Shown: positions 1-19,181 of the stretch, one piece after another
Position numbering within the stretch: the first letter of the stretch is position 1
How the letters are laid out: the number at the start of each line of letters is the position of its first letter
Origin: Cellulosilyticum lentocellum DSM 5427
GTDB lineage: Bacteria > Bacillota > Clostridia > Lachnospirales > Cellulosilyticaceae
Assembly: GCF_000178835.2 (NCBI RefSeq)
Contig: NC_015275.1
Location: 827,001 to 891,000 of the forward strand
Length of the DNA stretch: 64,000 nt
Direction of reading: 5' to 3'
Position numbers and translations under genes: made by a program
Notes under the pieces: model-generated
Databases searched by the model: none
What the model saw: only the letters and a program-made list of their open reading frames with translations
What the model was told of the DNA's origin: nothing

Positions 1-3000
1 TAAATAAAACAGTAATAGCAGGAGCAACAACCAAAACCTATGTGCTTACGAGTACAGATATAGGTAAATATATTAGTTTTGAAGTGACACCAGTAGCAGC
101 AACTGGAATAGCACAGGGCATTGCAGTTGAAAGTGCTAGAACAGGACCAGTCGTTTTAGCTGAAGCAGTACCTACAGCTACAGTGAAAGCTATTACAGGA
201 ATACTGCAAGTTGGAGAGACTTTGACAGGTAACTATATCTACAGTGATGTAAATGGTGATTTAGAGGGAGCCAGTACATACAAGTGGTACAGAGCAGATA
301 ACTCAGCAGGATTTAATAAAACTGAGATAGCAGGAGCAAACGCTAAAACATATGTACTTACCAGTTCAGATGAAGGAAAATATATTGGCTTTGAGGTAAC
401 GCCGGTAGCTTTAACCGGAATAGAGCAGGGAACAGCAGTATTAAGTACATGGGCAGGAATAATAGTACCAGCAGAAGCACCTCCTACAGTAACAGTACAG
501 GCAATAACAGGAACATTGCAGGTAGGAGAAACTTTGACAGGTAACTATACCTACAGTGATGTCAATGGTGATTTAGAAGGAACTAGTACTTACAAATGGT
601 ATAGAGCAGATAATGTAGCAGGTTTGAATAAGACAGCAATAGAGGGGGCAACTTCTTTCACCTATGTACTTGTTAGTGCAGATTTAGGAAAATATATAAG
701 CTTTGAGGTAACACCTGTAGCAGCAACTGGAATAGCACAGGGAACAGCAGCATTGAGTTCATGGACAGGAGCAATAGTAGCAGCTGAAGTAGCACCTACA
801 GCAATAGTGCAGCTGATAACAGGAACATTACAAGTGGGAGCGACTTTGACTGGTCACTATACCTATAGTGATGTCAACGGAGATCTAGAGGGAACCAGTA
901 CATACAAATGGTATAGATCAGATGATACAGCAGGACTAAACAAAACAGTAATAGCAGGAGCCACAACGAAAACATATGTGCTTACTAGTGGAGATATAGG
1001 TAAATACATAAGTTTTGAAGTAACGCCAGTAGCAGTAACTGGAACTTTGCAAGGCATTGCAGTTGAGAGTGGGATAACAGGACCAGTCGTTTTAGCAGAA
1101 GCAGTACCTAAAGCTACCGTACAGCCTATAACAGGAACACTACAGGTTGGAAGAATGCTAACAGGTCACTATACTTACAGTGATGTTAATGGAGATAGTG
1201 AAGGAACCAGTATATTTAAATGGTATAGGGCAGATAATTCATCAGGACTTAATAAAACAGAGATAGCAGGAGCAAATGCTAAAACATATGTACTTACCAG
1301 TTCAGATGAAGGAAAATATATTGGCTTTGAGGTGACGCCGGTAGCGCTAACCGGAATAACGCAGGGAACAGCAGTATTGAGTGAATGGGCAGGGGCAATA
1401 GTGCCGGCAGAAGCAGCACCTACAGCAACAGTACAGGCAATAACAGGAACATTGCAGGTAGGAGAAACTTTGACAGGTAACTATACCTACAGTGATGTCA
1501 ATGGTGATTTAGAAGGAACTAGTACTTACAAATGGTATAGAGCAGATAATGTAGCAGGTTTGAATAAGACAGCAATAGAGGGGGCAACTTCTTTCACCTA
1601 TGTACTTGTTAGTGCAGATTTAGGAAAATATATAAGCTTTGAGGTAACACCTGTAGCAGCAACTGGAATAGCACAGGGAACAGCAGCATTGAGTTCATGG
1701 ACAGGAGCAATAGTAGCAGCTGAAGTAGCACCTACAGCAATAGTGCAGCCGATAACAGGAACACTACAAGTGGGAGAGTCTTTGACAGGAAACTATACCT
1801 ACAGTGATGTAAATGGCGATTTAGAGGGAGCAAGCACTTACAAATGGTATAGAGCAGATAATATGGCAGGACTAAATAAAACAGTAATAGCAGGAGCCAC
1901 AACCAAAACCTATGTGCTTACTAGTGGAGATATAGGTAAATACATAAGTTTTGAAGTAACGCCAGTAGCAGTAACTGGAACTTTGCAAGGCATTGCAGTT
2001 GAGAGTGGGATAACAGGACCAGTCGTTTTAGCAGAAGCAGTACCTAAAGCTACCGTACAGCCTATAACAGGAACACTACAGGTTGGAAGAATGCTAACAG
2101 GTCACTATACTTACAGTGATGTTAATGGAGATAGTGAGGGAACCAGTATATTTAAATGGTATAGAGCAGATAATTCATCAGGACTTAATAAAACTGAGAT
2201 AGCAGGAGCAAACACTAAAACATATGTACTTACCAGTTTAGATGAAGGAAAATATATTAGCTTTGAAGTGACGCCAGTAGCAGCAACTGGAATTACTCAA
2301 GGAATTGCAGTTGAGAGTGGGAGAATAGGACCAGTAGCAGTAGTTTTAGCTGAAGCAGCACCTACAGCAACAGTACAGCCAATTACAGGAATATTAAAAG
2401 TAGGTGAGACACTGACAGGTCACTATACCTATAGTGATGTCAACGGAGATTTAGAGGGAAACAGTATATACAAGTGGTACAGAGCAGATGATATGGAGGG
2501 GCGAAATAAAACAGTAATAGTAGGAGCAAGAACCACAACATATGTGCTTACCAGTGCAGATGAAGGAAAATATATATGCTTTGAAGTCACACCAGTAGCA
2601 GCAACTGGAATAGCACAGGGAATAGCAATAGAAAGTGTAAGAACAGGTGTGGTAGGAAAGAAAGCGGGACAAAGTGGTGGTGGTGGTGGTAGTTCATATT
2701 CTCCTAATCCAGTCATTACTCCAACTATTGATATATTGATTAACAATGATAAAGTGAACTATGCAACCTCCGAAATTAAAATGGAAAATGGCAGAAAGAA
2801 AACGACCATTCAACTAGATGATGAAAAGCTTACTGCCAAGCTAAATACAGAAAACGTTGGGAGCACGATTATAATTCCTGTATATAACAACTCAGATATT
2901 GTAATAGGACAGCTCAACGGTCAAACGGTCAAGAATATGCAAGATAAAGATGCAACCCTCGAGATTAAAACAGAGAATGTTACTTATACTATTCCTGCAG

Positions 3001-3971
3001 CGGCTATTAATATAGGTAGCATTTCAGAAAGAATAGGTAGTCAGGTTCAGTTAAAAGATATCAAAGTAAACATTAGTATTTCAAATTCATCAAAAGAAAC
3101 AATAACAAAGGTTGAAACCAGTGCTAAAATGAATAACTTCCAGCTAGTAGTACATCCTACGGACTTTGAAATAACTTGCACAAACGGTAGCAAAACGCTT
3201 GAGGTATCTAGGTTTAACCATTACGTAGAAAGAACAGTACTTTTACCAAAGGGAGTTGAGCAGAATCAAATAACGACAGGTGTAGTATTGAACAAAGACG
3301 GCACTTTCACACATGTTCCTACTGTAGTAAAGTTTGTTGATGGAAGGTATTATGCAAAGATCAACAGCCTTACTAACAGTACCTATACAGTTATTTGGAA
3401 TCCTGTAACATTTAAGGATGTAGAAAAACACTGGGCAAAGGATTATGTCAATGATGTTGGTTCAAGGCTAATTGATGATGGTGTGGGAAATGGAAATTTT
3501 GCTCCAAATAGAGATATTACAAGAGCAGAATTTGCTTCAATGGTAGTCAAAGCACTTGGACTAAAAGGAACCAATTTCCCAGAGAAGTTTGGTGATGTTA
3601 ACAAAGGTGATTCCTATTATTACTCTATTTATACTGCCTATGAGTATGGCATACTTACTGGTTATTCAAATGGAAATTTTGGACCACAAGACTTAATTAC
3701 CAGAGAGCAAGCAATGACAATGCTTGCAAAAGCCATGGAGATAGTAGATTTGAATGTAACAGTATCTGATGCGGATGTGAGTAATCAACTTAAGTTATTT
3801 AAGGACTCTGATAGTATTTCATTATACGCAAGACAGACAGCTACAATCTGTGTGAAAAATGATATTTTTGCAGGAGATAATACAGGGAAGCTTACGCCAA
3901 AAGATAACCTTACAAGAGCAGAAAGTGCAACTATTATTATAAAGCTTTTGAAGAAGGCTGAACTCATCTAA
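1..3971 (+). CDS. SLH-anchored surface protein with tandem Ig-like repeats (5' end missing)
   Basis: The reading frame is open from the first codon of the window (NKTVIAGATTKTYVLT, in register with the later repeats), so the start lies upstream. Residue numbers below count from the GTG at 42. One partial and eight full copies of an approximately 104-residue module follow, each with a core like GTLQVGETLTGNYTYSDVNG, a KWYRAD strand and a GKYISFEVTPVA strand, typical of bacterial Ig-like beta-sandwich repeats. A Gly/Ser linker lies near residue 880, followed by a beta-rich module (about 890-1115) and three SLH domains (about 1124-1305). SLH domains bind pyruvylated secondary cell-wall polymers, so the protein is an exported, non-covalently anchored surface protein. 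The ligand or enzymatic role is unknown; the repeats probably act as a spacer or adhesin stalk. The stop at 3969-3971 is followed by a gene-poor region. Confidence 0.9.
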   Translation, partial: NKTVIAGATTKTYVLTSTDIGKYISFEVTPVAATGIAQGIAVESARTGPVVLAEAVPTATVKAITGILQVGETLTGNYIYSDVNGDLEGASTYKWYRADNSAGFNKTEIAGANAKTYVLTSSDEGKYIGFEVTPVALTGIEQGTAVLSTWAGIIVPAEAPPTVTVQAITGTLQVGETLTGNYTYSDVNGDLEGTSTYKWYRADNVAGLNKTAIEGATSFTYVLVSADLGKYISFEVTPVAATGIAQGTAALSSWTGAIVAAEVAPTAIVQLITGTLQVGATLTGHYTYSDVNGDLEGTSTYKWYRSDDTAGLNKTVIAGATTKTYVLTSGDIGKYISFEVTPVAVTGTLQGIAVESGITGPVVLAEAVPKATVQPITGTLQVGRMLTGHYTYSDVNGDSEGTSIFKWYRADNSSGLNKTEIAGANAKTYVLTSSDEGKYIGFEVTPVALTGITQGTAVLSEWAGAIVPAEAAPTATVQAITGTLQVGETLTGNYTYSDVNGDLEGTSTYKWYRADNVAGLNKTAIEGATSFTYVLVSADLGKYISFEVTPVAATGIAQGTAALSSWTGAIVAAEVAPTAIVQPITGTLQVGESLTGNYTYSDVNGDLEGASTYKWYRADNMAGLNKTVIAGATTKTYVLTSGDIGKYISFEVTPVAVTGTLQGIAVESGITGPVVLAEAVPKATVQPITGTLQVGRMLTGHYTYSDVNGDSEGTSIFKWYRADNSSGLNKTEIAGANTKTYVLTSLDEGKYISFEVTPVAATGITQGIAVESGRIGPVAVVLAEAAPTATVQPITGILKVGETLTGHYTYSDVNGDLEGNSIYKWYRADDMEGRNKTVIVGARTTTYVLTSADEGKYICFEVTPVAATGIAQGIAIESVRTGVVGKKAGQSGGGGGSSYSPNPVITPTIDILINNDKVNYATSEIKMENGRKKTTIQLDDEKLTAKLNTENVGSTIIIPVYNNSDIVIGQLNGQTVKNMQDKDATLEIKTENVTYTIPAAAINIGSISERIGSQVQLKDIKVNISISNSSKETITKVETSAKMNNFQLVVHPTDFEITCTNGSKTLEVSRFNHYVERTVLLPKGVEQNQITTGVVLNKDGTFTHVPTVVKFVDGRYYAKINSLTNSTYTVIWNPVTFKDVEKHWAKDYVNDVGSRLIDDGVGNGNFAPNRDITRAEFASMVVKALGLKGTNFPEKFGDVNKGDSYYYSIYTAYEYGILTGYSNGNFGPQDLITREQAMTMLAKAMEIVDLNVTVSDADVSNQLKLFKDSDSISLYARQTATICVKNDIFAGDNTGKLTPKDNLTRAESATIIIKLLKKAELI
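177..2655 (+). repeat. Eight tandem 312-bp Ig-like repeats with a 936-bp higher-order duplication
   Basis: Each repeat unit is about 312 nt (104 codons). Repeats 3-4-5 (489-1424) correspond one-to-one with repeats 6-7-8 (1425-2366), giving a three-module unit duplicated with an offset of exactly 936 nt (for example gcaataacaggaacattgca at 501 and again at 1437). Repeats 3 and 6 appear almost identical at the DNA level over about 310 nt, whereas neighbouring repeat types differ. This points to recent segmental duplication or gene conversion. Repeat 8 carries an extra two-residue insertion (GPVAVV). Confidence 0.9.
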
Positions 3972-4044
3972 GAGGTTGGTTGTTAGAGCTTCTAGAACGG
4001 TTAAAGATATGATTACATTTTAAATAGCAGTATGACTTTACTAC

Positions 4045-4173
4045 GTGGGATTATTTAAATTTCTAAATGACAACCAAAAGTTTGACTTGCCATTTATCCT
4101 AAGCGAGGAGATAAAAGAAGTAGCTTTAAATATTATGGATGTAGATAAAGAGGAACTAGTAAAAACTCAATAA
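4045..4173 (+). pseudogene. Short C-terminal gene remnant
   Basis: A 42-codon stretch from GTG at 4045 to TAA at 4171-4173 encodes GLFKFLNDNQKFDLPFILSE and then a charged tail ending EELVKTQ. It is preceded in frame by a stop (TGA 4033-4035), has no ribosome binding site and runs straight into a good terminator (4182-4227). This looks like the tail of a decayed gene rather than a functional peptide. The family is not recognised. Confidence 0.3.
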
Positions 4174-4181
4174 ATGCGCAA

Positions 4182-4227
4182 CAAAAATACCACCCTTTTA
4201 GAATAACTAAAAAGGTGGTATTTTTGT
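4182..4227 (+). terminator. Rho-independent terminator
   Basis: The inverted repeat caaaaataccacc / ggtggtatttttg sits between short A- and T-runs, followed by tttttg. It lies just after the decayed reading frame at 4045-4173 and would also end read-through from the SLH gene. The sequence is nearly symmetric and could act on both strands. Confidence 0.7.
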
Positions 4228-4239
4228 TTACCAGTCCCT

Positions 4240-4620
4240 TTGATTTAACCTTTACACCTATGCTTTAGCTCTAAATGGCATAGCAGCAGCTCCTCAGTAC
4301 GACTAGTTGTAAAGAGACTAAGACATAAGTATGAAAGCTAAACCGAAGAGTGAGGAGCTCCTAAAAGTCATAGCCGGTGCACCCTTTATGATGAGGAAGC
4401 TAAGGCTTTAAGACTCTGGTTTTAAACTTTAGTTGGGGTGCTACTAGATGTAAAGCATGATCAAACAACTTATAATGAGCGCCTCCCTTGCAGCGCATCA
4501 GTGAACATTTTTCTTAAGTCCAGAGGTACCTATAACAATAGATTGAGACTTGGCTGACCCGGTCAGTTCCTCAGATTGAAGCTGTGGTGATTCTGCTGTG
4601 GGAAGTTATTTGATTTATCT
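4240..4620 (+). other. Non-coding, multi-stem region; possible group II intron domain I relic
   Basis: No reading frame is convincing here, but the sequence is rich in stems. agctcctca (4288-4296) pairs with tgaggagct (4351-4359). gcaccc (4379-4384) pairs with gggtgc (4436-4441). ctgacc (4554-4559) pairs with ggtcag (4561-4566). The string aaaccgaagagtgaggagct followed by cctaaaag and then tatgatgagg is reminiscent of domain I of bacterial group II introns (the CCTAA..TATGG-type receptor). No domain V and no intron-encoded reverse transcriptase is visible, so at most it is a fragment. It could instead be an unrelated structured RNA. Confidence 0.3.
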
Positions 4621-4638
4621 TTACACTATACTATATGT

Positions 4639-4788
4639 GATAAGAAGAATGATTCCCTAAAAAATTTATTAAAAAAGTTTGATATTGTGAATAGAAAAGC
4701 TTTTGATTATATAAAACTAGAGAAGTATTAAGCCTATGAAAGAAAAAATCTTATTAGAATAGGATTAAAGATACTTAAAGTTTCATAA
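4639..4788 (+). pseudogene. Decayed reading frame with internal stop
   Basis: An in-frame track encodes KNDSLKNLLKKFDIVNRKAF and continues to an internal TAA (4729-4731), then AYERKNLIRIGLKILKVS to a second TAA at 4786-4788. Apart from the internal stop the composition is protein-like, resembling the basic tail of a transposase. It has no start or ribosome binding site. The family cannot be assigned with confidence, but a relic of a mobile element fits the gene-poor context. Confidence 0.25.
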
Positions 4789-4861
4789 GAATAGTAATGG
4801 AGAGTGCAACTTGACAGCATTAAAATAGTATGACATGATAATACAGAAATAATACAAATGA

Positions 4862-5065
4862 ATAAAGCATAGAAGGTGTCCGTAAGGACTTAATAGGGAA
4901 AGCTAAGAACTGCAGCCCCCGCTACTGTTAATAGGGACGAAGGCAAAAGCCACTGTAAACCAAGGTTTATGGGAAGGCGCCGGAGGAAGAACTATGAGCC
5001 AGGAGACCTGCCTTGTATGTGTGAGAAAGTATTCTTTCGGAGGGAGAGAATAGTACGCGAAACTA
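4862..5065 (+). promoter_or_regulatory. Cobalamin (B12) riboswitch
   Basis: The strongly conserved B12 box agccaggagacctgcc is at 4997-5012, and the upstream core element gccactg is at 4949-4955, with the expected purine-rich spacer between (gggaaggcgccgg). It lies about 195 nt upstream of the btuFCD-like importer and is followed by an intrinsic terminator hairpin (5093-5128). The layout fits a transcription-attenuation riboswitch that shuts off import when adenosylcobalamin or a related corrinoid is plentiful. Confidence 0.92.
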
Positions 5066-5092
5066 TCAAAAATAGTTGATGGTGCTATTAAT

Positions 5093-5260: not shown

Positions 5261-6262
5261 ATGAGAAATAAGAAAGCACTTAAAGGAAAAGTCATTAGTT
5301 TATTATTAGTAACCTTTTTAATGAGCTTATTATTAGTAGGCTGTGGCAGTAAAAATCAAGGGGACCAAACAGCTCCAAGTACATCACCAGAAGTCTCAGC
5401 AGAAGTCACAAGTCAGCCAGAGCAAACTGCAGATGAAGCATTTAACGTGACCATTACTGATTCTACAGGAACAGAAATTACTTTAACGAAGAAACCAGAG
5501 AGAATCGTTTCTTTAGCACCAAGTACAACAGAAATTCTTTGTGCTTTAGGTTTAGAAGATAAAATGGTAGGTCGTACAAAATACTGCAACTATCCAGAAA
5601 GCATTACAGCACTTCCAGAAGTAGGGGGTACTTCTAACCCTAATGTAGAAGCAATCGTAGATTTAAATCCAGACCTAGTAGTAGGTGCAACTCACGTATC
5701 AGAAGAAGTCATTGGTAAATTAAGAGAAGTAGGGATTAATGTGGCTTTCCTTAATGAACAAGAAAACTTTGAAGGAACTTACTCTGCTATTGAAAAAGTA
5801 GGTATGCTTACAGGTACAGATGAAAAAGCAGCAGAGGTAGTTGCTGAAATGAAACAAAAAGTAGCTGACTTAGAAATAGCTCTTCAAGGACTTAACTTAA
5901 CTGAACTTCCAAAAGTATATTATGCAACAGGCTTTGGTGAAAGTGATTACGGTGCAGGTGGAGATACTTTCATTGGTGAAATCATTCATTTAGCAGGTGC
6001 TACTAACATTGCCCAGGAAATCTCAGGTTGGTCTATTAGCAAAGAGCAAATCGCTGATGGTGACCCAGATATAATTATTGTACCATCAGGCGTAAATATG
6101 GCTGCTGACATGGCAACAACTGATTTCTATAAAGATTTAAGAGCTGTGAAAGAAGGCAAAGTTTATGAAATAGACGGAGATAGTATTTCAAGACAAGGCC
6201 CTAGAGTAGCAGATGCCCTCGTAGAGATGGCGCAAAAAATTCATCCAGAACTTGCAAAATAA
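5261..6262 (+). CDS. btuF: Corrinoid ABC transporter, substrate-binding lipoprotein
   Basis: This 333-residue protein has a lipoprotein signal (hydrophobic stretch then LLVGC; Cys28 is the lipidated residue), a short Ser/Thr/Pro spacer and a periplasmic-binding domain of the TroA/BtuF class (RIVSLAPSTTEILCALG, TKYCNYPE, GGTSNPNVEAI). It binds substrate outside the membrane and delivers it to the BtuC-type permease. The family also includes siderophore and heme binders, but the cobalamin riboswitch upstream makes corrinoid the best call. The start has ggagg at 5251-5255 at good spacing. It is the first gene of a tight three-gene operon; the stop at 6260-6262 is 1 nt from the ATG of the permease gene. 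Confidence 0.87.
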   Translation: MRNKKALKGKVISLLLVTFLMSLLLVGCGSKNQGDQTAPSTSPEVSAEVTSQPEQTADEAFNVTITDSTGTEITLTKKPERIVSLAPSTTEILCALGLEDKMVGRTKYCNYPESITALPEVGGTSNPNVEAIVDLNPDLVVGATHVSEEVIGKLREVGINVAFLNEQENFEGTYSAIEKVGMLTGTDEKAAEVVAEMKQKVADLEIALQGLNLTELPKVYYATGFGESDYGAGGDTFIGEIIHLAGATNIAQEISGWSISKEQIADGDPDIIIVPSGVNMAADMATTDFYKDLRAVKEGKVYEIDGDSISRQGPRVADALVEMAQKIHPELAK

Positions 6263-6263
6263 G

Positions 6264-7286
6264 ATGAAACATAAAAAAGCGTTAATAGGAAATATAAGCT
6301 ATTTATATTTCCTATTAACTTTATGTCTGATTTTATTTGCGTGTATCTCCGTGATTATAGGTGTTGCTGATATTACTGTAGGTGACATCATCAATATTAT
6401 TGGCGCTAAGTTAAAGCTAGTTCCTCTTAGTGAATCTATTTCCAAGGGACAAGAGACCATTGTGTGGAATCTAAGAATCCCAAGAATTTTAATGGCACTA
6501 CTTACAGGCATTAATCTAGCCATAACTGGCGCTGTTTACCAATCCCTTTTTAGAAATGATATGGCAGACCCTTATATGTTAGGCGTTTCTTCAGGAGCTT
6601 CTTTAGGCGCGGCTATGGGTTTTATATTAGGAGGTTTTTTACCTGTTTGGGCTTTTGTAGGTGCTATGCTTGCTAATGGTTTAGTCATTAGCTTATCAGG
6701 CATTAAAGGAAAAGTATCACCTATTAGGCTGCTGCTCTCAGGTCTTGCTATTAACTATTTCTTTTCTGCCCTCTTATCTTATATACGAATTCAAAGCGAA
6801 GATAAGCAGTTAGCCGTATTTGTATGGGGGATGGGTTCTCTAAATGCAGCTTCTTATAAGCGAGTTGGTATTCTACTAGCTATTACTGTGCCTATTCTAT
6901 GCTTATTTTTTGTTTATCGTAAAGAGCTCAATTTACTTTTAATGGGAGAAGAAGCGGCTAAAGCAATGGGGGTAGACGTAAGCAAAGTGAGGAAAAGGCT
7001 TTTAGTAGCCAGCAGTATTTTAATTGCCACTAATGTGGCTTTTACAGGGACTATTGGTTTTGTGGGACTTATTATTCCCCATATGGTGAGATTGCTATTT
7101 GGATCTAATTATAAGCGTACCTTACCATTGTGTGGCTTTTTCGGGATGTACTTTGTCCTCTTTTGTGATGACTTAGCAAGGGCAGTGTCTAGTAAAGGGG
7201 AAGTGCCATTAGGTATTGTGACTGCTTTATTCGGAGCACCTTATTTTATGTATTTGATTTATAAAGAGCGCAGGAGGGAAAGCTAG
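6264..7286 (+). CDS. btuC: Corrinoid ABC transporter permease
   Basis: This is a FecCD/BtuC-family integral membrane protein of 340 residues with about ten hydrophobic segments. It carries the family signature regions: RIPRILMALLTGINLAITGA, the SSGASLGAAMG loop, and the cytoplasmic coupling segment GFVGLIIPHMVRLLFG that contacts the ATPase. The ATG at 6264 is chosen over an in-frame TTG at 6252, because TTG would overlap the btuF stop. Neither start has a strong ribosome binding site, consistent with translational coupling to btuF. The last codon overlaps the next gene's GTG by one base. Confidence 0.87.
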   Translation: MKHKKALIGNISYLYFLLTLCLILFACISVIIGVADITVGDIINIIGAKLKLVPLSESISKGQETIVWNLRIPRILMALLTGINLAITGAVYQSLFRNDMADPYMLGVSSGASLGAAMGFILGGFLPVWAFVGAMLANGLVISLSGIKGKVSPIRLLLSGLAINYFFSALLSYIRIQSEDKQLAVFVWGMGSLNAASYKRVGILLAITVPILCLFFVYRKELNLLLMGEEAAKAMGVDVSKVRKRLLVASSILIATNVAFTGTIGFVGLIIPHMVRLLFGSNYKRTLPLCGFFGMYFVLFCDDLARAVSSKGEVPLGIVTALFGAPYFMYLIYKERRRES

Positions 7287-8053
7287 TGATTTGTATTCGA
7301 AACTTAAGCTATGAAAAAAGTCATAAGACAATCTTAAACAGTATTTCCTTCCAGTTTGAAGAAGGCAAAACCTATGGGATTATTGGACCTAATGGTGCAG
7401 GAAAAAGTACCCTTCTTAAGCATATGATGAACCTCATCGTGCCACCTAAAAATACGATTTTTTATGAGGATAAAGATATAAGAAACTTTCATGTCAAAGA
7501 TTATGCTAAAAAGGTGAGCTTTGTTTTTCAAGAAAATACAAGGCAAGTGGACTTTAGCGTCTATGAAATGCTTTTAATGGGAAAATACACAGAAATGGAT
7601 CTATGGGGAAACCTTTCTAAGGAAGTTGAGGAGGAAGTTGTAGAACTTTTAAAGGAACTACAGATTTTGCACCTTAAAGACCAACCTATTAATACCTTAA
7701 GTGGAGGCGAAGCACAAAAGGTGTTTATTGGTAGAGCATTACTTCAAAATACCCCACTTTTATTATTAGATGAGCCCACCTCTATGTTAGATATGCATAA
7801 TAGCATTGAGCTGATGCACTGCATCGAAAGGCTCAAAGCAAAGCGTCATTTAACGATTGTCATGGTGCTCCATGACCTTAATCTAGCTCTCCAAAGCTGT
7901 CAGGAGTTACTACTTATGGAAGAGGGAAAGATTATTATGTCAGGTACACCACAAGAAATGGTGCAAGGCATAGAATTACAGCGTGTCTATCATCAAAAAT
8001 TGCATCTCATAGAAGAAGCAGGGCAAAGCTATATTGTACCACGTTTATTCTAA
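7286..8053 (+). CDS. btuD: Corrinoid ABC transporter ATPase
   Basis: This 255-residue ABC ATPase has Walker A GPNGAGKST (residues 35-43), Q-loop VFQEN, signature LSGGEAQKV (about 138-146), Walker B LLLLDEP (about 158-164) and an H-loop in VLHDLN. It energises uptake by the BtuFC pair. The start is GTG, overlapping the permease stop (TAGTG), with aggaggg 8 nt upstream at 7272-7278. It ends the riboswitch-controlled operon. Related FecE/FhuC ATPases are similar; corrinoid specificity rests on the riboswitch. Confidence 0.87.
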   Translation: MICIRNLSYEKSHKTILNSISFQFEEGKTYGIIGPNGAGKSTLLKHMMNLIVPPKNTIFYEDKDIRNFHVKDYAKKVSFVFQENTRQVDFSVYEMLLMGKYTEMDLWGNLSKEVEEEVVELLKELQILHLKDQPINTLSGGEAQKVFIGRALLQNTPLLLLDEPTSMLDMHNSIELMHCIERLKAKRHLTIVMVLHDLNLALQSCQELLLMEEGKIIMSGTPQEMVQGIELQRVYHQKLHLIEEAGQSYIVPRLF

Positions 8054-8365
8054 GCTAAAGGAGCTAATAATATTAAAGGCATTTAAACAGAGAAGATAGG
8101 ACATGAGTACGTTTATAAAATGATTTATTTGTGCGAAATATACAAAAATAGTCAGATTATTTATCAGGTAAAGGCCCTTGATGAAAGGGCTTTCAAAGAC
8201 CAAATGACAAAGGAAACCTACTAATGGCGAAGTAAGGCTGGCTGTCAAAATTAAAAAAACAACATTGACAAACAAAAATTATCCACTTATAATAAACCTA
8301 ATTTAAAACCACTAGTAAATACTGAAAATTTGAAAATAAAATTTTGAGGGAAAGGAGATCTATTG
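8054..8365. other. Intergenic region, no gene recognised
   Basis: This is AT-rich spacer after the importer operon. A small hairpin (aaggccc / gggcttt around 8171-8193) and a late stretch that may hold the promoter of the small reading frame at 8366 are the only structures noticed. No riboswitch or tRNA signature was recognised. Confidence 0.4.
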
Positions 8366-8497
8366 ATGAGTACTTTAACTAAAAAACTTGCAGCACAATT
8401 TAACTTTTACTTTTTTAGCTGGGGCTATTTTTATTTTAGCGCTGGTTATTTTTGCTGCAAACAAAATAAGTTAAAGTCTTCTAGCATATTAGTCTAA
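8366..8497 (+). pseudogene. Small single-pass membrane protein, apparently frameshifted
   Basis: The ATG at 8366 has an excellent ribosome binding site (aaaggagat, 8351-8359). The frame starts MSTLTKKLAAQFNFYF and then becomes an atypical aromatic-rich tail ending at TAA 8495-8497 (43 residues). In the +1 frame the same DNA reads FLAGAIFILALVIFAANKIS and stops at 8472-8474, a perfect transmembrane helix with a basic end. The simplest reading is a roughly 36-residue small membrane protein broken by a one-base indel in the T-rich run near 8405-8415. The function is unknown. Confidence 0.45.
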
Positions 8498-8533
8498 GTC
8501 AATATATCTTATTTCCGAACTCATAAAAGATAT

Positions 8534-8574
8534 AAAGGCCTTATGTTCCTAGGAGCATAAGGCCTTTATTTTTT
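8534..8574 (+). terminator. Rho-independent terminator
   Basis: aaaggccttatg (8534-8545) pairs perfectly with cataaggccttt (8556-8567), followed by atttttt. It ends the small membrane-protein transcript and insulates the aromatic-amino-acid genes. From 8575 to 8831 there is only AT-rich leader with no recognised T-box or attenuator. Confidence 0.88.
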
Positions 8575-8831
8575 ACCATAGAAAACTCATTTATTGAGAT
8601 CAGATGACCTTACAATGAAGAAAGGGCCCAGTACTCTAGTAAGTCAAGGATGATTTCAATAATTTGATATAAATAGAGTAGTTTAATTTTAAAGTGAAAG
8701 ATTTGCTGTAAGAAATAGGTTCAAAATGTAGATTAAATCATGTAAGCAGAAGTAATAGCCAAAAAATAACAACCATTAAAAAATAAACTTTAAAAAATAG
8801 TAAATACTAAAATTATGGGAGGTCATTTAAT

Positions 8832-9860
8832 ATGATTATTGTAATGAAAAACAACACACCAGAAGAGGAAATTAATAGATTAATGAAAGAATTGACATCT
8901 AGTTATGACATAAAAATTCAAAAGATTACAGGAAGCCAATGTACAGTTTTAGGACTCATTGGAGACACATCATCTATTGAAGTCGATGATATTTCAAGAG
9001 ATAGCCGCGTAGATAAAGCAATGCGTGTGAAACAACCTTATAAGAAAGCCAATAGAGCTTTCCATCCAGATGATAGCATATTTGAAATTGGGGGCAGAAA
9101 AATCGGAGGAAAGGACATTGCTATTATTGCAGGACCTTGCTCTGTAGAAAGTGAAGAACAAATTGTGGGGATTGCAGAAGCAGTAAAAGCATCCGGTGCC
9201 ACTTTCCTTAGAGGAGGGGCTTACAAACCTCGTACTTCTCCATATGCTTTCCAAGGACTTGAAGCAGAAGGCTTAGAGCTTCTTAAAATTGCTAGAGCTA
9301 AAACTGGCCTTCCAATTGTTACAGAAATTATGGACCCAGCAACACTTGACCAATTCGTAGAAGATGTAGATATTATCCAAGTAGGCGCAAGAAATATGCA
9401 GAACTTCTCACTCCTTAAACAGCTTGGTCAAACTAAAAAACCTATTTTACTTAAAAGAGGTCTTTCAGCTACAATTGAAGAGTGGATTATGTCAGCAGAA
9501 TACATTATGGCAGGCGGTAATGAGCAAGTTATCTTCTGTGAAAGAGGTATCAGAACCTTTGAAAATTATACACGTAACACTTTAGATTTATCAGCTATTC
9601 CAGCTATTAGAAAGCTTAGTCACTTACCTATTATCATTGACCCAAGCCATGCCACAGGTCTTCGTTATATGGTAGAACCAATGTGCGCAGCAGCTGTTGC
9701 AGCTGGAGCAGATGGTCTGATCATTGAAGTTCATAACAATCCAGAGAAAGCACTTTGTGATGGGCCACAATCTGTAACACCAGAAGGCTTCAGCCACATT
9801 ATCAGTAAAGTTGCTAAATACGCAGCAGTAGAAGATCGTCATATCAGTGGGGTGAGATAA
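8832..9860 (+). CDS. aroF: 3-deoxy-7-phosphoheptulonate synthase (DAHP synthase, type I-beta)
   Basis: This enzyme condenses phosphoenolpyruvate with erythrose 4-phosphate in the first step of the shikimate pathway (cytoplasm). The 342-residue protein has the extra N-terminal ferredoxin-like regulatory domain of the type I-beta class (residues 1-70: VMKNNTPEEEINRLMKEL), then the barrel with IAGPCSVESEEQ (about 98-109), RGGAYKPRTSPYAFQG, IQVGARNMQNFSLL, LLKRG and the metal-site region IIDPSHATG. The start is ATG 8832 preceded by gggagg. It is followed directly (ATG at 9861) by prephenate dehydratase, so the pair links the first committed step to phenylalanine synthesis. Confidence 0.95.
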   Translation: MIIVMKNNTPEEEINRLMKELTSSYDIKIQKITGSQCTVLGLIGDTSSIEVDDISRDSRVDKAMRVKQPYKKANRAFHPDDSIFEIGGRKIGGKDIAIIAGPCSVESEEQIVGIAEAVKASGATFLRGGAYKPRTSPYAFQGLEAEGLELLKIARAKTGLPIVTEIMDPATLDQFVEDVDIIQVGARNMQNFSLLKQLGQTKKPILLKRGLSATIEEWIMSAEYIMAGGNEQVIFCERGIRTFENYTRNTLDLSAIPAIRKLSHLPIIIDPSHATGLRYMVEPMCAAAVAAGADGLIIEVHNNPEKALCDGPQSVTPEGFSHIISKVAKYAAVEDRHISGVR

Positions 9861-12859: not shown

Positions 12860-13010
12860 TATGCTTGTTCCTAGACTATAAGGGGTGCAGGGGAAGAATT
12901 CCCAGCCGTATTTAGGAGGGGGCTTAGCTGACATGTTTTTTGTCAGCGTCGAAGGGAATCTAGGGTTCCCTAGCGGGAGAAATGTGGACGTTAGTCCACT
13001 TTCTTGTGAT
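12860..13010 (+). ncRNA. Candidate structured RNA or leader upstream of the multicopper oxidase operon
   Basis: At least four compact stems follow each other: gggaa/ttccc (12891-12903); gctgaca/tgtcagc (12927-12947, 7 bp, loop tgttttt); agggaa/ttccct (12953-12971), which competes with ctaggg/ccctag (12960-12973); and gtggac/gtccac (12984-12999, tetraloop gtta). The region is distinctly more GC-rich than its flanks and has no reading frame. It lies just after a terminator and about 130 nt before the first gene of the operon, so it could be a cis-regulatory leader or an independent small RNA. No known riboswitch consensus is matched. Confidence 0.4.
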
Positions 13011-13137
13011 GTAGAAATTTATTAATAAATAGAACCAAATAGCATATCGAACATACTATGATAACAGAAACAAGCGTGACGAGTTAGTAGAGATAGTAAT
13101 GAAAAGAAAACCTTAAAGTGAGAAAGGGGGAGCTTAT

Positions 13138-13782
13138 ATGTCTAAAAAGAAAAGATATAAAAAAGAAGATACAGACTGTAAAGAAATGTGCCATACGAAC
13201 GAAATGGAGCGATGTGGAACAGGAGATACAGGCTGTAAAGGGACCGCTATGTGTCATATGTCTAGTAGTATGTGCAATGGTGTATTTGAACCAGTATGTG
13301 CACCCGAGGTATGTAATGTGCCTAGGATACCTCATCATGAGGTATTAGTGGATGGGCAGGGTATTTTATTAGACATCCAGAGTCAGAAGGAAATTTGCTT
13401 TACTATTTTCGTAGAACGTGAAATGCAGGTTTATAAGGGAGAGTTTGAATTGCAAGATATAGGTAAGGAGATTAAAGTGAGAGCAGATGTTCTTAAACTC
13501 TTTGAAAGTGACGGTAAAACGCATATGCTCGCTATATTCCATGAGGAAGCTACAACTAGGGATAGTGTCATTACAGTATATCAAGAAGAACAAAGTGAAG
13601 AAGTACAAGAACAAGGGCATCAAGTAGAGCAAGGAGATCAAAGACATCCAGGGCATGAGGAAGGATCAACTCAGATTTTCATCTATAGTACATCTATGCA
13701 GGCAGGAGCTACTAACTTAGGTGGAGCGCTAATAGCTGGAGACATTAAGTTATATGTAGATCATAATGTGCATGAGCATTAG
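13138..13782 (+). CDS. Cys-rich protein of the multicopper oxidase operon, unknown function
   Basis: This 214-residue protein has no signal peptide. The first 65 residues are strongly basic and contain about ten cysteines with Met/His neighbours (CKEMCH, CGTGDTGCKGTAMCHM, CNGV..CAPEVC), resembling a metal-binding segment. The middle (about 70-145) is predicted beta-rich (VLVDGQGILLDI, CFTIFVERE). A Gln/Glu/His-rich linker (EEQSEEVQEQGHQVEQGDQ) leads to a final beta segment. No family is recognised. The position as first gene before two small proteins and a giant multicopper oxidase, and a coat-protein-like composition, suggest a spore-coat or metal-handling role; this is inference. The start ATG 13138 has aaaggggg upstream. 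Confidence 0.8.
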   Translation: MSKKKRYKKEDTDCKEMCHTNEMERCGTGDTGCKGTAMCHMSSSMCNGVFEPVCAPEVCNVPRIPHHEVLVDGQGILLDIQSQKEICFTIFVEREMQVYKGEFELQDIGKEIKVRADVLKLFESDGKTHMLAIFHEEATTRDSVITVYQEEQSEEVQEQGHQVEQGDQRHPGHEEGSTQIFIYSTSMQAGATNLGGALIAGDIKLYVDHNVHEH

Positions 13783-13800
13783 AAAATGGGGGGATAGAAT

Positions 13801-14154
13801 ATGGGAAAGAGTAGCTGTAATGATAAGGAAAAATGTAGAGAGAAATGCCATTCAAGTGATCAAGAAAGCTTATTTGCAAGGCGTGACCTAGCGCGAGATT
13901 TAGAGGCATTTATGGGAAAATCGCTTCTAGTTGTCTTAGATGATAATCAACTCAATATACTTAATCAAGTATTTAGACCTATTTTTTGCGGTGATGTGGT
14001 AGAAGTAACGGATGAGTATGTGGTACTTGAAAAGGTAAATATTAAGATGAGTAATGCACCTGAATTTATTTTTCCAACACCGTTCATCATTCCACTAATT
14101 AACATTGTATGGTTTACACCATTTGATCCTTCAATTAGATTTTCACTTTTTTAA
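13801..14154 (+). CDS. Small Cys-rich N-terminus / beta-rich protein, MnxE/F-like position
   Basis: This 117-residue protein starts with a polar Cys-rich tail (SSCNDKEKCREKCHSSDQ), then a helix (SLFARRDLARDLEAFMG) and a beta-rich core (GKSLLVVLDDNQ, GDVVEVTDEYVVLEKVNI) with an aliphatic/aromatic C-terminus (FIIPLINIVWFTPFD). The core resembles that of the next gene, so the two may be distant paralogues with a small-barrel (Sm-like or YuzF-like) fold. It lies 18 nt after the preceding stop and 15 nt before the next start. In the Bacillus Mn-oxidase operon two small subunits (MnxE, MnxF) immediately precede MnxG; this gene occupies an equivalent place. Homology is not demonstrated. Confidence 0.75.
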   Translation: MGKSSCNDKEKCREKCHSSDQESLFARRDLARDLEAFMGKSLLVVLDDNQLNILNQVFRPIFCGDVVEVTDEYVVLEKVNIKMSNAPEFIFPTPFIIPLINIVWFTPFDPSIRFSLF

Positions 14155-14169
14155 TAGGGAGGGAAAGTA

Positions 14170-14412
14170 ATGAATCTAACATTAGTAGAGAGAATAAGTC
14201 TTAGCGTAGGAAATAGAGTACTTGTTATGACAGGCGCTTTTCCGTTTTTTGTAGTAGGTAGACTCATAAAAGTAGAACCTGACACCATACATGTCATAAG
14301 TGAATTTGGCGTACCGGGTCCATTAAAGAATCAAGAGTTTGCTATCCAATTAGAACACATTGCAACATTTTATGCAGAGGAAAGCGAGGGAGAAATTCCT
14401 GTTGTGTGGTAA
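14170..14412 (+). CDS. Small beta-rich protein, MnxE/F-like position
   Basis: This 80-residue protein has a GNRVLVMTGAFPFFVVGRLI strand-turn-strand, then KVEPDTIHVISEFGVPG and FAIQLEHIATFYAE, a pattern like small barrel proteins of spore coats (YuzF/DUF2642-like). It has no signal peptide and no cysteines. The ATG at 14170 has a good ribosome binding site (agggaggg). The gene is wedged between the 117-residue protein and the giant oxidase, with 19 nt to the oxidase start, so the subunits are probably made together as a complex. The biochemical role is unknown. Confidence 0.72.
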   Translation: MNLTLVERISLSVGNRVLVMTGAFPFFVVGRLIKVEPDTIHVISEFGVPGPLKNQEFAIQLEHIATFYAEESEGEIPVVW

Positions 14413-14431
14413 ATAGGAAGGGGAGATAATA

Positions 14432-17400
14432 ATGGTTAGACATTTTTGTATATCAGCCATTCAAGTTCCTATTGTCTACAATAAATACGGAGATGTGGAT
14501 CCCAATGGCCTTATGTATGTGCTAGATAAAAATAAAGACGAGGTTAAAAAAAGGATAAAAGAATGTCCAGGAACGTATGTGGATCTCGTACAGCCTTTGG
14601 TTATACGCGCACACCAGGGTGATATCGTTGAAATTACCTTTAAGAATGAACTTTGCTTTTCTGCTTCTATGAATGTCAAAGGCCTACCTTATGAGGTACA
14701 GAATACAGATGGTGCTTTTGTAGGAGGCAATGAAAGTTCATTAGCAGCACCAGGAAAAACCATTTGTTATAGATGGTATGCCCAGGCGCAAGGAGCGTTT
14801 CATTTTAGTGATTTAGGAAATGCACTAAGTTCAGAAATAGGGAGTAATATACATGGCTTATTTGGGGCCATAGTTGTAGAAGCACCAGGTAGTACATGGA
14901 CAGACCCTCAGAGCGGATGTCCACTAGAAAGTGGTGTGTTTGCAGATATTCACCATCCTTTCAAGCCAGATTTTAGAGAATTTGTAACGATTTTTCATGA
15001 TGAAGCAGCTGTTAAAAACAGGTTTGGTGAAACACCTATAGATCCTATGACCGGTTTTCCAGAAATGACGCATTCCATTAACTACCGTGCAGAACCTATG
15101 CGTAATAAAATGCAGCTCATTATGGAAGGTGTTGTCTGTCCTGACTGTGAAGGTGAAGAAGTACATCATGATTCATGGGTGTTTGGAGATCCACCCCCTA
15201 CCGTACTTCCTAGATGTTATAAAGCAGACCCTGTAAGGTGGTATGCCATTCATGGTGGCGTAAAGGAAACGCATATTTTCCATTTACACTTACAACAGTG
15301 GTTATCTGAACCAGAGGTACAAGAATCTTTCTTAAATGATTCACGTGCTTTTGGACCAGGAGAGACCATTACCTTTGATATTTTATATGGAGCAGGTAGC
15401 TTGCAAAAGGCTTATGGAGATGTTATTTATCACTGCCATTTGTATCCTCACTTTGCTGAAGGCATGTGGGGCATTCAACGTATCCATGATGTACTTGAAG
15501 AGGGAAATCGTTGTTATCCTGATGGCACACCCGTTACAAGGCTCATGCCACTTCCAGATAGACCCTGTCCACCCAAACCTACAGAAAAGCACCCAGGCTT
15601 TCCATTCTTTATTCCAGGTAAAGTAGGATGTAGAAGTCCAGTACCACCTAAAGGCTATGATCGAGATTTTCCAATAACAGATTTAGAGTGCAATGCATTA
15701 GCAGATAACGCTGAGCTAGGTGCGCTATTTGTCAATCCTTGCCCAGAAGGTACATCTGTAAGGCGCTATGATATAGTAGGGATTCAGCAAAACCTTGTTT
15801 ATAACGAAGCCAATTGGCATGACCCAGAAGGAAGATTTTATGTACTGAAACAAGATGAAGAAGCTGTTAGAAATGGAACTAAAAAACCCGAACCACTCTT
15901 CATTAGGGCTAAGGCAGGAGAATGTATAGAGATTCATTTTACGAATAAGTTTCCAGAGAAACTAGGACCTAATGCCTTCCAAATTCAAATTAATACCTTA
16001 TTTGCTTCTACCCACGTACACTTTGTAAAATTCGATGTACTTTCATCTGATGGCGCTAATACAGGTTGGAACTACTTTACAGGAACTGCTCATGAACAAA
16101 CAGTTGTTTATAGATGGTATGCTGATGTAGAGCTAAAAGTATGTTTCTTCCATGATCACCTTTTTGCAAATTCTGTACAGCTACATGGTTTATTTGGTGG
16201 ACTAATAGTAGAGTCAGAAGGATCTAGGTTCTTAGATACTCACACAGGAAAACGTATGACAGCAGGTACGCAGGCTATCATACAGAATCCGTTTATTCCA
16301 GATTTCAGGGAATTCTGCTTAGCAGTTCATGACTGGGCACCAGTTTATGATGGAAAAGGTAAGGCACTAAATCCACCAGATGAGCCTGGCATCATGGATG
16401 ATATGGGGGTAATAGCTTTTAATTATACCAATGCACCATTTGATATAAGAGGTGGTGAACCAGCCCACGTATTTAGTTCTTATGTACATGGAGATCCTTG
16501 GACACCATTATTTGAAGGTTATGCAGGGGACCCTGTAAGAGTAAGGCTCATTGATGGAGCCCATGAAGAATCTCATGCTATTAACTTTAACAGGTATGAG
16601 TGGCATAGAGATAGAACGGATGTAGACTCACCCCTTGTAGCAGAACAGCATATAGGGATTTCAGAAACCTTTACCTTTGAATTTTCATTAGAGAGCTTAA
16701 GTGGCAGAGAAGACTTTGATGTTTTGTATTATTCTAGTGGTATGGATGATCTTTGGTTAGGAACATGGGGAATCACTAGGGTGAGGGGAACCTTGATACC
16801 TACCTTATATCCGCTAAAAGATAGACCACTACTTCATAGACGAAAAGAGCCTATGCCATATCAGACCTGCTGCCCACCACCTAAAGCGACTTCACCGGGT
16901 AATCCATTCCCCTGTGGAACTAAAGTAAATCACTTTAATGTAGCTGCGGTGCAAAGGCCTATTATCTATAATCAATTTTGTGATAATGACCCATATGGCA
17001 TGATATTTGTATTACTAGAAGATGTAGAGAAGGTATTATGTGGAGAGAAGAATCCAGAGCCACTTATACTCACTATTAATGCAGGAGAAGGCGTAGAATT
17101 AACTTTAGTGAATCTCATGCCGAAGGAGCTAGATGTACCACAGTTCCCAGAGGTACCTGTACAGAAATGTTGGCCGTATAGTTCAAGAGTTTCTATGAAC
17201 AGCCAAGGCGCAGAATATGATGTACTTGGCTCTGATGGTGCAACGATAGGATTTAATCCAGATCAGACTATAGGAGTAGGAGAATCTATTACCTATAGAT
17301 GGTACTATCCAGAAACAGCCACACAAGCTATAGTTGTAGACTTTGGTGATTCAATGAATCATAGAAAACATGGTTTATTTGGGGCAATTAGCTTTGCAGA

Positions 17401-18064
17401 GGTGGGTTCTAAGCATTACGATCCATTTACTGGCTGTGAAAAGGATAAGGGAGAACAACTTGTTATTAGGAATCCATTTCTACCTGATTATAGGCAATTT
17501 GTACTACTGGCTCATAATGGTATTTATCTAGAAGATAAAAAAGGTGACTTACTTCCCAAATTCTTCTTTAATCCAGAGATTGCAGTAGATGATGAAGATC
17601 TTGATACAGAAGATCAAGGTATGAAAGGGTATAACCTAAGAAGTGAGCCTTTCTATAATAGGCTGTTACAAGATCCTGTAATAGGTAATGTGTTCACTTC
17701 AGATGAGCCGGATTTATCGGATATTTCAACCCCGATATTTTATGCAAATCCTGGAGACCCAATTACTATTAAGTTACTCATGCCAGCTGAGAAGCCAAGA
17801 GCAACTACATTCTATGTACATGGTCATGCAGTGCATTCAGAGAATACAAATATGAATTCACCTATCATAGGAGTAGATGGAGCCATTACAATTGGTGATA
17901 ACTATAGGAAAGACTTACTAGGAGGAGCTACAGCTGGAGTATGTCAAACAGGAGACTATATGTATCAATCTGCTAACATTACTTGGGATATAGAATCTGG
18001 TATGTGGGGGAATATGCATGTGGTTGAAGAAGGAGAAGAGGGATTAATTCCATTAGAGCAGTGA
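14432..18064 (+). CDS. Giant six-domain multicopper oxidase, MnxG-like
   Basis: This 1210-residue protein without a signal peptide is built of repeated cupredoxin domains (recurring IVYNKYGDVDPNG / GLFGAIVVEAPGS-type segments, at least six). Copper ligand motifs are present: ETHIFHLH (His281, 284, 286) and YHCHLYPHFAEGM (His334, Cys335, His336, His340, Met345) give a type 1 copper and half of the trinuclear site; THVHF (His528, 530) and FFHDH (His574, 576) give the other half. The length and architecture match MnxG, the Mn(II) oxidase on Bacillus spores (about 1217 residues), rather than three-domain laccases. It likely oxidises Mn(II), Fe(II) or Cu(I) using oxygen; the substrate is not determinable here. 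It is preceded by two small genes in an operon, as MnxG is by MnxE and MnxF. The lack of a signal peptide fits a spore-coat or exosporium location. Confidence 0.85.
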   Translation: MVRHFCISAIQVPIVYNKYGDVDPNGLMYVLDKNKDEVKKRIKECPGTYVDLVQPLVIRAHQGDIVEITFKNELCFSASMNVKGLPYEVQNTDGAFVGGNESSLAAPGKTICYRWYAQAQGAFHFSDLGNALSSEIGSNIHGLFGAIVVEAPGSTWTDPQSGCPLESGVFADIHHPFKPDFREFVTIFHDEAAVKNRFGETPIDPMTGFPEMTHSINYRAEPMRNKMQLIMEGVVCPDCEGEEVHHDSWVFGDPPPTVLPRCYKADPVRWYAIHGGVKETHIFHLHLQQWLSEPEVQESFLNDSRAFGPGETITFDILYGAGSLQKAYGDVIYHCHLYPHFAEGMWGIQRIHDVLEEGNRCYPDGTPVTRLMPLPDRPCPPKPTEKHPGFPFFIPGKVGCRSPVPPKGYDRDFPITDLECNALADNAELGALFVNPCPEGTSVRRYDIVGIQQNLVYNEANWHDPEGRFYVLKQDEEAVRNGTKKPEPLFIRAKAGECIEIHFTNKFPEKLGPNAFQIQINTLFASTHVHFVKFDVLSSDGANTGWNYFTGTAHEQTVVYRWYADVELKVCFFHDHLFANSVQLHGLFGGLIVESEGSRFLDTHTGKRMTAGTQAIIQNPFIPDFREFCLAVHDWAPVYDGKGKALNPPDEPGIMDDMGVIAFNYTNAPFDIRGGEPAHVFSSYVHGDPWTPLFEGYAGDPVRVRLIDGAHEESHAINFNRYEWHRDRTDVDSPLVAEQHIGISETFTFEFSLESLSGREDFDVLYYSSGMDDLWLGTWGITRVRGTLIPTLYPLKDRPLLHRRKEPMPYQTCCPPPKATSPGNPFPCGTKVNHFNVAAVQRPIIYNQFCDNDPYGMIFVLLEDVEKVLCGEKNPEPLILTINAGEGVELTLVNLMPKELDVPQFPEVPVQKCWPYSSRVSMNSQGAEYDVLGSDGATIGFNPDQTIGVGESITYRWYYPETATQAIVVDFGDSMNHRKHGLFGAISFAEVGSKHYDPFTGCEKDKGEQLVIRNPFLPDYRQFVLLAHNGIYLEDKKGDLLPKFFFNPEIAVDDEDLDTEDQGMKGYNLRSEPFYNRLLQDPVIGNVFTSDEPDLSDISTPIFYANPGDPITIKLLMPAEKPRATTFYVHGHAVHSENTNMNSPIIGVDGAITIGDNYRKDLLGGATAGVCQTGDYMYQSANITWDIESGMWGNMHVVEEGEEGLIPLEQ

Positions 18065-18139: not shown

Positions 18140-18181
18140 AAAGTGGCTATAACCTAAAAAGTTATAGCTACTTTGCTTTTA
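18140..18181 (+). terminator. Terminator of the multicopper oxidase operon
   Basis: aagtggctataac (18141-18153) pairs with gttatagctactt (18161-18173), followed by tgctttt. It lies about 75 nt after the oxidase stop. Confidence 0.85.
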
Positions 18182-19015: not shown

Positions 19016-19181
19016 ATTTATTAAGAGACTCTGTTCTTTTTTATAAGACATTTATGCATGACGTGGCAGACCCTTTGTAGGAGCTCAAAATAACAAACCA
19101 AAGTAAGAGGTTGATAAAATATGCTATAATAGAAGTAAGTAAATCAAGTTTGTGGTTCTTTATTATATCGGAGGAAAAACA

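Follow-up and report, generated by a model that had tools for sequence, protein, structure and literature searches.

A divergent mnxEFG operon in Cellulosilyticum lentocellum DSM 5427, an apparent anaerobe

Mnx, an enzyme studied in Bacillus spores, oxidizes Mn(II) in a reaction that requires O2. What, then, would the genes for such an enzyme be doing in a bacterium that apparently lives without oxygen? This question is raised by the genome of Cellulosilyticum lentocellum DSM 5427, a single contig of 4,714,237 bp, of which we analyzed a stretch of 64,000 nucleotides (nt) at positions 827001-891000, referred to here as the window. Four + strand open reading frames (ORFs) form a compact cluster at 13138-18064 of the window, and are presumably expressed as a single transcript. 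We find that this cluster, which consists of a Cys-rich first gene followed by mnxE, mnxF and mnxG, is a true mnxEFG operon, though a divergent one, in a host that appears to be anaerobic. The finding is carried by direct observations, namely the homology of three of the proteins to MnxE, MnxF and MnxG, the order of their genes, the copper ligands, the placement of the oxidase in the mnxEFG clade, and the lack of any match in the genome to two families of terminal oxidases.

Homology of the four genes

The largest protein can be aligned to Bacillus sp. PL-12 MnxG (9bxa_A in the PDB) over residues 1-1209, with 1171 bits (phmmer), and this full-length match excludes a chance resemblance. A laccase assignment was ruled out, as the best laccase-type match is partial and scores 41 bits; cupredoxin copper motifs are what the protein has in common with two-domain laccases and copper oxidases, all in partial matches of at most 41 bits. 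The NCBIfam family NF041487, which is named MnxG, has 1894 positions and is presumably the Pseudomonas type of MnxG, is distant multicopper-oxidase kin; its score of 275 bits lies far under the cut-off of 3100. All 12 copper ligands are present, i.e., His281/284/286, His334-Cys335-His336, His340, Met345, His528/530 and His574/576, and the alignment shows the identical 12 letters in 14 further mnxEFG-type proteins. The sole departure in the whole ligand table, in which L007 is represented without its N-terminal part, is one H-to-R in L083 (such numbers denote the relative loci described below). An apparent loss of the type 1 (T1) His in PL-12 MnxG is explained by 9bxa being the H340A mutant, according to the PDB title. 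No signal peptide was apparent on inspection by eye.

The protein encoded by the second gene matches MnxE (9bxa_B) with an E value of 1.7e-17 (phmmer), and is 35-43% identical to the MnxE of nine other loci. Its N-terminal tail contains three cysteines. Among the 14 other MnxE sequences, a Cys ahead of the MnxE domain is found only in L086, where it lies in the linker of a fusion protein: L086:5399-6010, upstream of mnxG, is a single 203-amino-acid (aa) ORF that matches both MnxF and MnxE, and is thus a naturally occurring F-E fusion. Six of the 14 (L017, L018, L024-L027) have a Cys pair, of which the window protein retains the first alone (Cys63), while seven have no Cys whatever. MnxE and MnxF themselves are related only weakly by hhalign (62%).

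The third protein matches MnxF (9bxa_E) with an E value of 9.6e-5 (phmmer). A profile of this protein and those of 10 other loci matches 9bxa_E with an E value of 4.1e-37, mostly owing to the other members. The AlphaFold model of the window MnxF has a predicted local distance difference test (pLDDT) score of 84.5 and consists of one helix and five strands; its top PDB match is again 9bxa_E (Foldseek E 3.1e-5, template-modeling score 0.76), and the next are mainly Hfq and other Sm/LSm proteins. The original prediction had described a 1210-residue oxidase with complete T1 and trinuclear ligands, preceded by small genes in the order mnxE-mnxF-mnxG, as an analogy to Mnx. The ligands and the order both hold, and for three proteins the analogy is homology: the 117-aa and 80-aa proteins do resemble MnxE and MnxF, respectively, and the 1210-aa protein is closer to MnxG than to laccases.

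The same cannot be said of the Cys-rich first gene. Its 214-aa product has no Pfam or NCBIfam match, and nothing in the PDB falls under E 0.15. The gene has no second copy in its own genome and no match in the 91 other relatives searched (92 including its own genome), and the 390 other genomes of the class yielded two marginal, partial matches (E 0.006 and 0.008). The candidate identity as MnxD is unsupported, with -1.2 bits to a profile built from seven Bacilli MnxD proteins, all seven of which are among the loci scored with it; the Cys-rich MnxD-like protein of L020, which is outside the profile, gives E 2.9e-19. Kinship with MnxE or MnxF is likewise unsupported (hhalign probabilities of 0.7% and 0.1%), and the single-sequence structural model, with a mean pLDDT of 32.7, is unusable. 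Searches with the upstream proteins, as the original prediction had proposed, identified MnxE and MnxF and left the Cys-rich gene with neither an MnxD match nor a convincing relative. A role in copper handling and one as a Cys-rich scaffold of a spore layer are equally good guesses.

Features of the mnx operon and its immediate flanks, in window coordinates
Feature	Position	Strand	Basis or remark
Relaxed sigma-K-like promoter, AC-N16-CATACTATG	13034..13060	+	104 nt ahead of first start codon; weak alone
Cys-rich first gene, 214 aa, no convincing relative	13138..13782	+	ORF; profile and homology searches
mnxE homologue, 117 aa, added N-terminal Cys tail (C6, C12, C16)	13801..14154	+	phmmer to 9bxa_B, Cys positions
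mnxF homologue, 80 aa, Sm/LSm-type fold, Gln60 at usual His	14170..14412	+	phmmer, profile, Foldseek, alignment
mnxG homologue, six-domain multicopper oxidase, 1210 aa, 12 Cu ligands	14432..18064	+	phmmer, ligand table, tree
Terminator-like hairpin 3' of mnxG	18140..18174	+	14-pair stem, then GCTTTTATAA

Relatives, host and earlier reports

A scan of genome contigs yielded 247 stretches, the best 80 of which are the relative loci to which all locus counts refer. Of these, 15 are of the mnxEFG type and 63 belong to a second clade; in the remaining two, L021 and L087, the upstream side is cut. MnxE and MnxF matches occur in the window and in the 15 other loci, including L016, which has a broken mnxG frame and only a fragment of mnxE, at the end of its contig. 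The 63 second-clade loci, 9 of which have less than 1000 nt of upstream sequence, gave no such match. The mnxEFG clade of the tree has 16 rows, the window included, and a Shimodaira-Hasegawa-like approximate likelihood ratio test (SH-aLRT) support of 100; the rows are the window, 13 from Bacilli (representing 12 loci, as one has two copies), and two from metagenome-assembled genomes (MAGs), one of Clostridiales (L017) and one of Bacillota (L086). The second clade has 62 rows, comprising 61 of its 63 loci together with L007; they have no E or F match and are mostly from Lachnospiraceae, Ruminococcus and other Clostridia by their record titles, many being labelled as gut samples. The exact position of the window protein is unsure because its branch is long (1.64), the method quick and the root a midpoint; it lies outside the second clade, many of whose loci differ from the window also in having an upstream DUF2935 gene. 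It shares with the MnxG-like proteins of anaerobic Firmicutes a similar length and, in the aligned rows, the same copper ligands (the substitution in L083 aside).

Besides the one in its own genome, mnxG has one strong, long match in 95 relatives and one in 390 genomes of the class, and is therefore rare in the genomes sampled; each of these searches gave two further matches, which are short and weak. The genus is represented by six further genomes, three of them 81-86% complete, and none has an mnxG match at E 0.001. In a comparison of sister-genome neighbourhoods the only match to the gene at 19152 was a weak one, in a single other Cellulosilyticum genome, and an empty insertion site can therefore not be demonstrated. 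Two further loci may be recorded here. In L007/L014 (G028:C96, the contig that also holds L087), an mnxG-like gene stands beside an HMA-domain gene and a CsoR-type regulator, and by eye also adjoins a P-type ATPase; the contig ends on its upstream side. L092 is a second-clade mnxG-like gene on a contig labelled Methanosarcina sp. Ant1, a label that is probably due to contamination.

Of the 15 other mnxEFG loci, 12 have an MnxD-like ORF, which lies upstream of mnxE in nine (L020 and L022-L029) and solely downstream of mnxG in three (L015, L017 and L018). L016, L019 and L086 gave no MnxD match in the sequence available around each locus, and an mnxD-like gene is therefore not a defining part of Mnx. 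Ten of the mnxEFG loci have an MnxD-like gene directly 3' of mnxG, with E values from 5e-21 to 1.6e-9, i.e., at L015:9653-10456, L017:9708-10472, L018:9509-10330, and near 9600-10570 in L022-L027 and L029; seven of the ten also carry an upstream MnxD. The locus L020:3-9642 (Halalkalibacter alkaliphilus) has tandem mnxG genes, at 1337-5080 and 6001-9642, with MnxD, E and F preceding the first and the Cys-rich MnxD-like gene between the two.

Searches of the 4.71-Mb genome for cytochrome bd oxidase (PF01654) and heme-copper oxidase (PF00115) gave no match; the two were detected in 10 and 8 of 14 control genomes, respectively. This result would fit a strictly anaerobic life, as the original prediction had supposed for the host, and is not in itself proof of it. 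Its further view that such an oxidase is unexpected in an anaerobe needs to be corrected, because the 63 second-clade loci are mostly from Clostridia and because MnxG-like proteins from Clostridium perfringens D JGS1721 and C. methylpentosum DSM 5476 were already on record in 2013, in PMC3600357, which places both with Bacillus MnxG; the presence of MnxG in clostridia is therefore already in print. What is new is an mnxEFG operon in a genome that gave no match to either cytochrome bd oxidase or heme-copper oxidase, together with the replacement of MnxG His288 and of the common MnxF His, the Cys tail of MnxE, and a Cys-rich first gene without convincing relatives. No report of mnxEFG in an anaerobe was found in the open-licence literature, a coverage that does not extend to subscription papers.

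Compared with MnxEFG of PL-12 (9bxa, PMC5622069), the window operon has the same three proteins in the same order, a full-length MnxG with the same copper ligands (H340A in 9bxa aside), and an Sm-like fold in the model of its MnxF. It differs in its apparently anaerobic host, in the Cys-rich first gene and the lack of a detected MnxD-like gene, in an MnxE with cysteines in an N-terminal tail but without a counterpart of the second Cys of 9bxa_B, and in substitutions in MnxF and MnxG that are weighed below.

Sigma-K motifs, DUF2935 genes and the flanks

The sigma-K consensus, AC-N15-17-CATANNNTA, was sought together with sigma-E and sigma-G patterns. It occurs upstream of 4 of 14 mnxEFG-type starts, with a shuffle mean of 0.20 (L016 and L027 were left out, and L020 was represented by its second unit). 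In the second clade, a same-strand DUF2935 (PF11155) gene lies within 2.5 kb upstream of mnxG in 37 of the 54 loci that have at least 1000 nt of upstream sequence (tblastn; loci among L030-L094, e.g., L040:4431-5984 and L032:5073 onward), a count that supersedes the ORF-based ones (36 loci by clustering, adjacency in 28 of 53), which depend on ORF picking. The promoter set for these genes is ORF-based, comprising 33 same-strand loci, 31 of them with enough upstream sequence; kept in the 31, all without a match, are L034 and L036, in which DUF2935 is downstream of mnxG, and L050, in which it is an 88-aa fragment. The sigma-K consensus is found upstream of 15 of these 31 DUF2935 starts (shuffle mean 0.73) and on the reverse strand of one. 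Among control genes in the same loci, the corresponding counts are 5 of 132 for the mnxEFG-type set (Fisher p 0.005) and 2 of 194 for the DUF2935 set (p 4e-13), p values that overstate the strength and independence of the signal because the loci are related.

When compared with 192 permuted motifs, the true sigma-K motif ranks first in the DUF2935 set; the runners-up, with 10, 7 and 6 of 31, share the CATA...TA part, and the signal is therefore mainly in the -10 element. Thirteen of the 15 matches begin 49-64 nt ahead of the ORF start. Neither set contains a sigma-E or sigma-G pattern. L027, examined afterwards, has a strict sigma-K match 60 nt before mnxD, and the region around mnxE in the first unit of L020 has none. 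A relative of DUF2935 in the PDB, 3d19, is described as a 'conserved metalloprotein', and the genome studied here has a two-domain DUF2935 gene of its own, at G000:C1:4525731-4526594, far from the mnx operon. In the open-licence literature we found no report of the pairing of DUF2935 with mnxG, and for DUF2935 itself only a fungal report.

Sporulation of the host is relevant here: its genome encodes Spo0A (404 bits), and according to PMC5622069, Bacillus sp. PL-12 spores oxidize Mn whereas vegetative cells do not, and at least mnxEFG is required for this activity. Given the family-level sigma-K enrichment, a spore location seems likely for the MnxG family, and the MnxG-type oxidases of Clostridia look like sigma-K-dependent, spore-surface enzymes, which we regard as the most interesting result. 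For the window operon on its own, promoter support is weak. The spore location put forward in the original prediction has thus gained comparative support from promoters elsewhere, and of the sigma-E or sigma-K site that it envisaged upstream of 13138, what was found is a relaxed sigma-K site.

Between an oleate hydratase gene and the mnx operon lies a Clostridiales-2 small RNA (RF02937, 68.1 bits) at 12873-12959, followed by a terminator-like hairpin at 12984-12999; the idea of a leader RNA acting as an mnx riboswitch was ruled out on these grounds. The hairpin downstream of mnxG is suggestive only, because a scan of the 6 kb region gave 6 terminator-like sites, compared with 3.6 +/- 2.1 in shuffles. 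Farther away, a cobalamin riboswitch (94.3 bits) at 4857-5029 precedes a group of genes at 5261-8053, among them those for a FecCD-type permease and an ABC ATPase.

What the operon may do

From these comparisons we infer that the window operon makes an Mnx-type complex, most likely formed by the mother cell during late sporulation and located at the spore surface, which oxidizes Mn(II) or Fe(II) with O2; we assign this reading a probability of about 0.6. MnxG would pass electrons from the metal ion via the type 1 copper to the trinuclear copper cluster, where O2 would be reduced to water, and MnxE and MnxF would form an Sm-like ring that supports it. Synthesized in the mother cell and then placed on the spore surface, the enzyme would be active only once the dormant spore meets oxygen, and the oxidation of Mn(II) (or Fe(II)) would coat or detoxify the spore surface. 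Complex formation, location, substrate and physiological role are all part of this proposal, which several observations weigh against.

The window MnxG departs from near-invariant columns at 38 positions, with about 270 columns compared. Of seven yardsticks, L015, L017, L025, L041, L094 and L084 depart at 4, 6, 1, 0, 2 and 8, and L086 is the exception, at 29. The substitutions include H288Q (His in 75 of 75 others), E193A (Glu in 74 of 75) and R271Y (Arg in 74 of 75). In MnxF, Gln60 occupies a position that is His in 14 of 15 relatives and Met in L086; judging from the alignment, a His that only the window protein has, at position 63, could compensate for it. These conserved MnxG residues outside the 12 ligands, and the MnxF His, are common features that are not known to define Mnx. 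In addition, no window ORF matches the MnxD profile. The promoter data also have adverse sides beyond the relatedness of the loci. The window site differs from the consensus by one mismatch; when the 138-bp region was shuffled 2000 times, 1.2% of the shuffles contained such a site, and a relaxed match is also found upstream of 3 of 32 other window genes. Within the mnxEFG set, the relaxed motif occurs in 5 of 14 regions on the forward strand and in 2 of 14 on the reverse, and 9 of the 14 have no forward match.

The lost residues, His288 and Glu193 among the 38 and the usual His of MnxF, are also what might be expected of a spore-surface oxidase that has shed its Mn-specific features in this lineage, and that acts instead on Fe(II) or Cu(I) or serves mainly to remove O2. 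The gene neighbours of L007/L014, where the E/F side is cut, point the same way. However, E and F have been kept, and both are required for Mn oxidation in PL-12, as stated in PMC5622069; we consider this alternative somewhat unlikely, though a serious one. Improbable in our judgment is a vegetative, cytoplasmic oxidase that detoxifies O2 or copper and has nothing to do with sporulation: the absence of an apparent signal peptide and the weak promoter of the window operon would suit it, but the sigma-K enrichment across the family does not, nor does the fact that spores are where the known mnxEFG enzyme is active (PMC5622069). Lastly, the long branch and the failure to match mnxG in any of the six further Cellulosilyticum genomes could reflect a decaying, acquired operon that no longer has a function, but four intact ORFs and a complete set of copper ligands in a gene of 1210 codons make this very hard to believe. 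We therefore favor the Mnx-type complex on the spore surface, with Mn(II) or Fe(II) as its substrate.

A wider proposal can be offered tentatively. Anaerobic spore formers may broadly carry a late mother-cell (sigma-K), spore-surface MnxG that acts after the spore has left its anoxic habitat, in two architectures, mnxEFG and DUF2935-mnxG; the lineage of the window would have lost histidines from MnxF and MnxG and gained Cys-rich segments, perhaps shifting copper loading to thiolates. If this is true, the dormant spores of anaerobes carry out an oxygen chemistry that is impossible for the growing cells, and the question of what purpose metal oxidation serves on spores would become testable in organisms for which a role in aerobic energy metabolism is unlikely.

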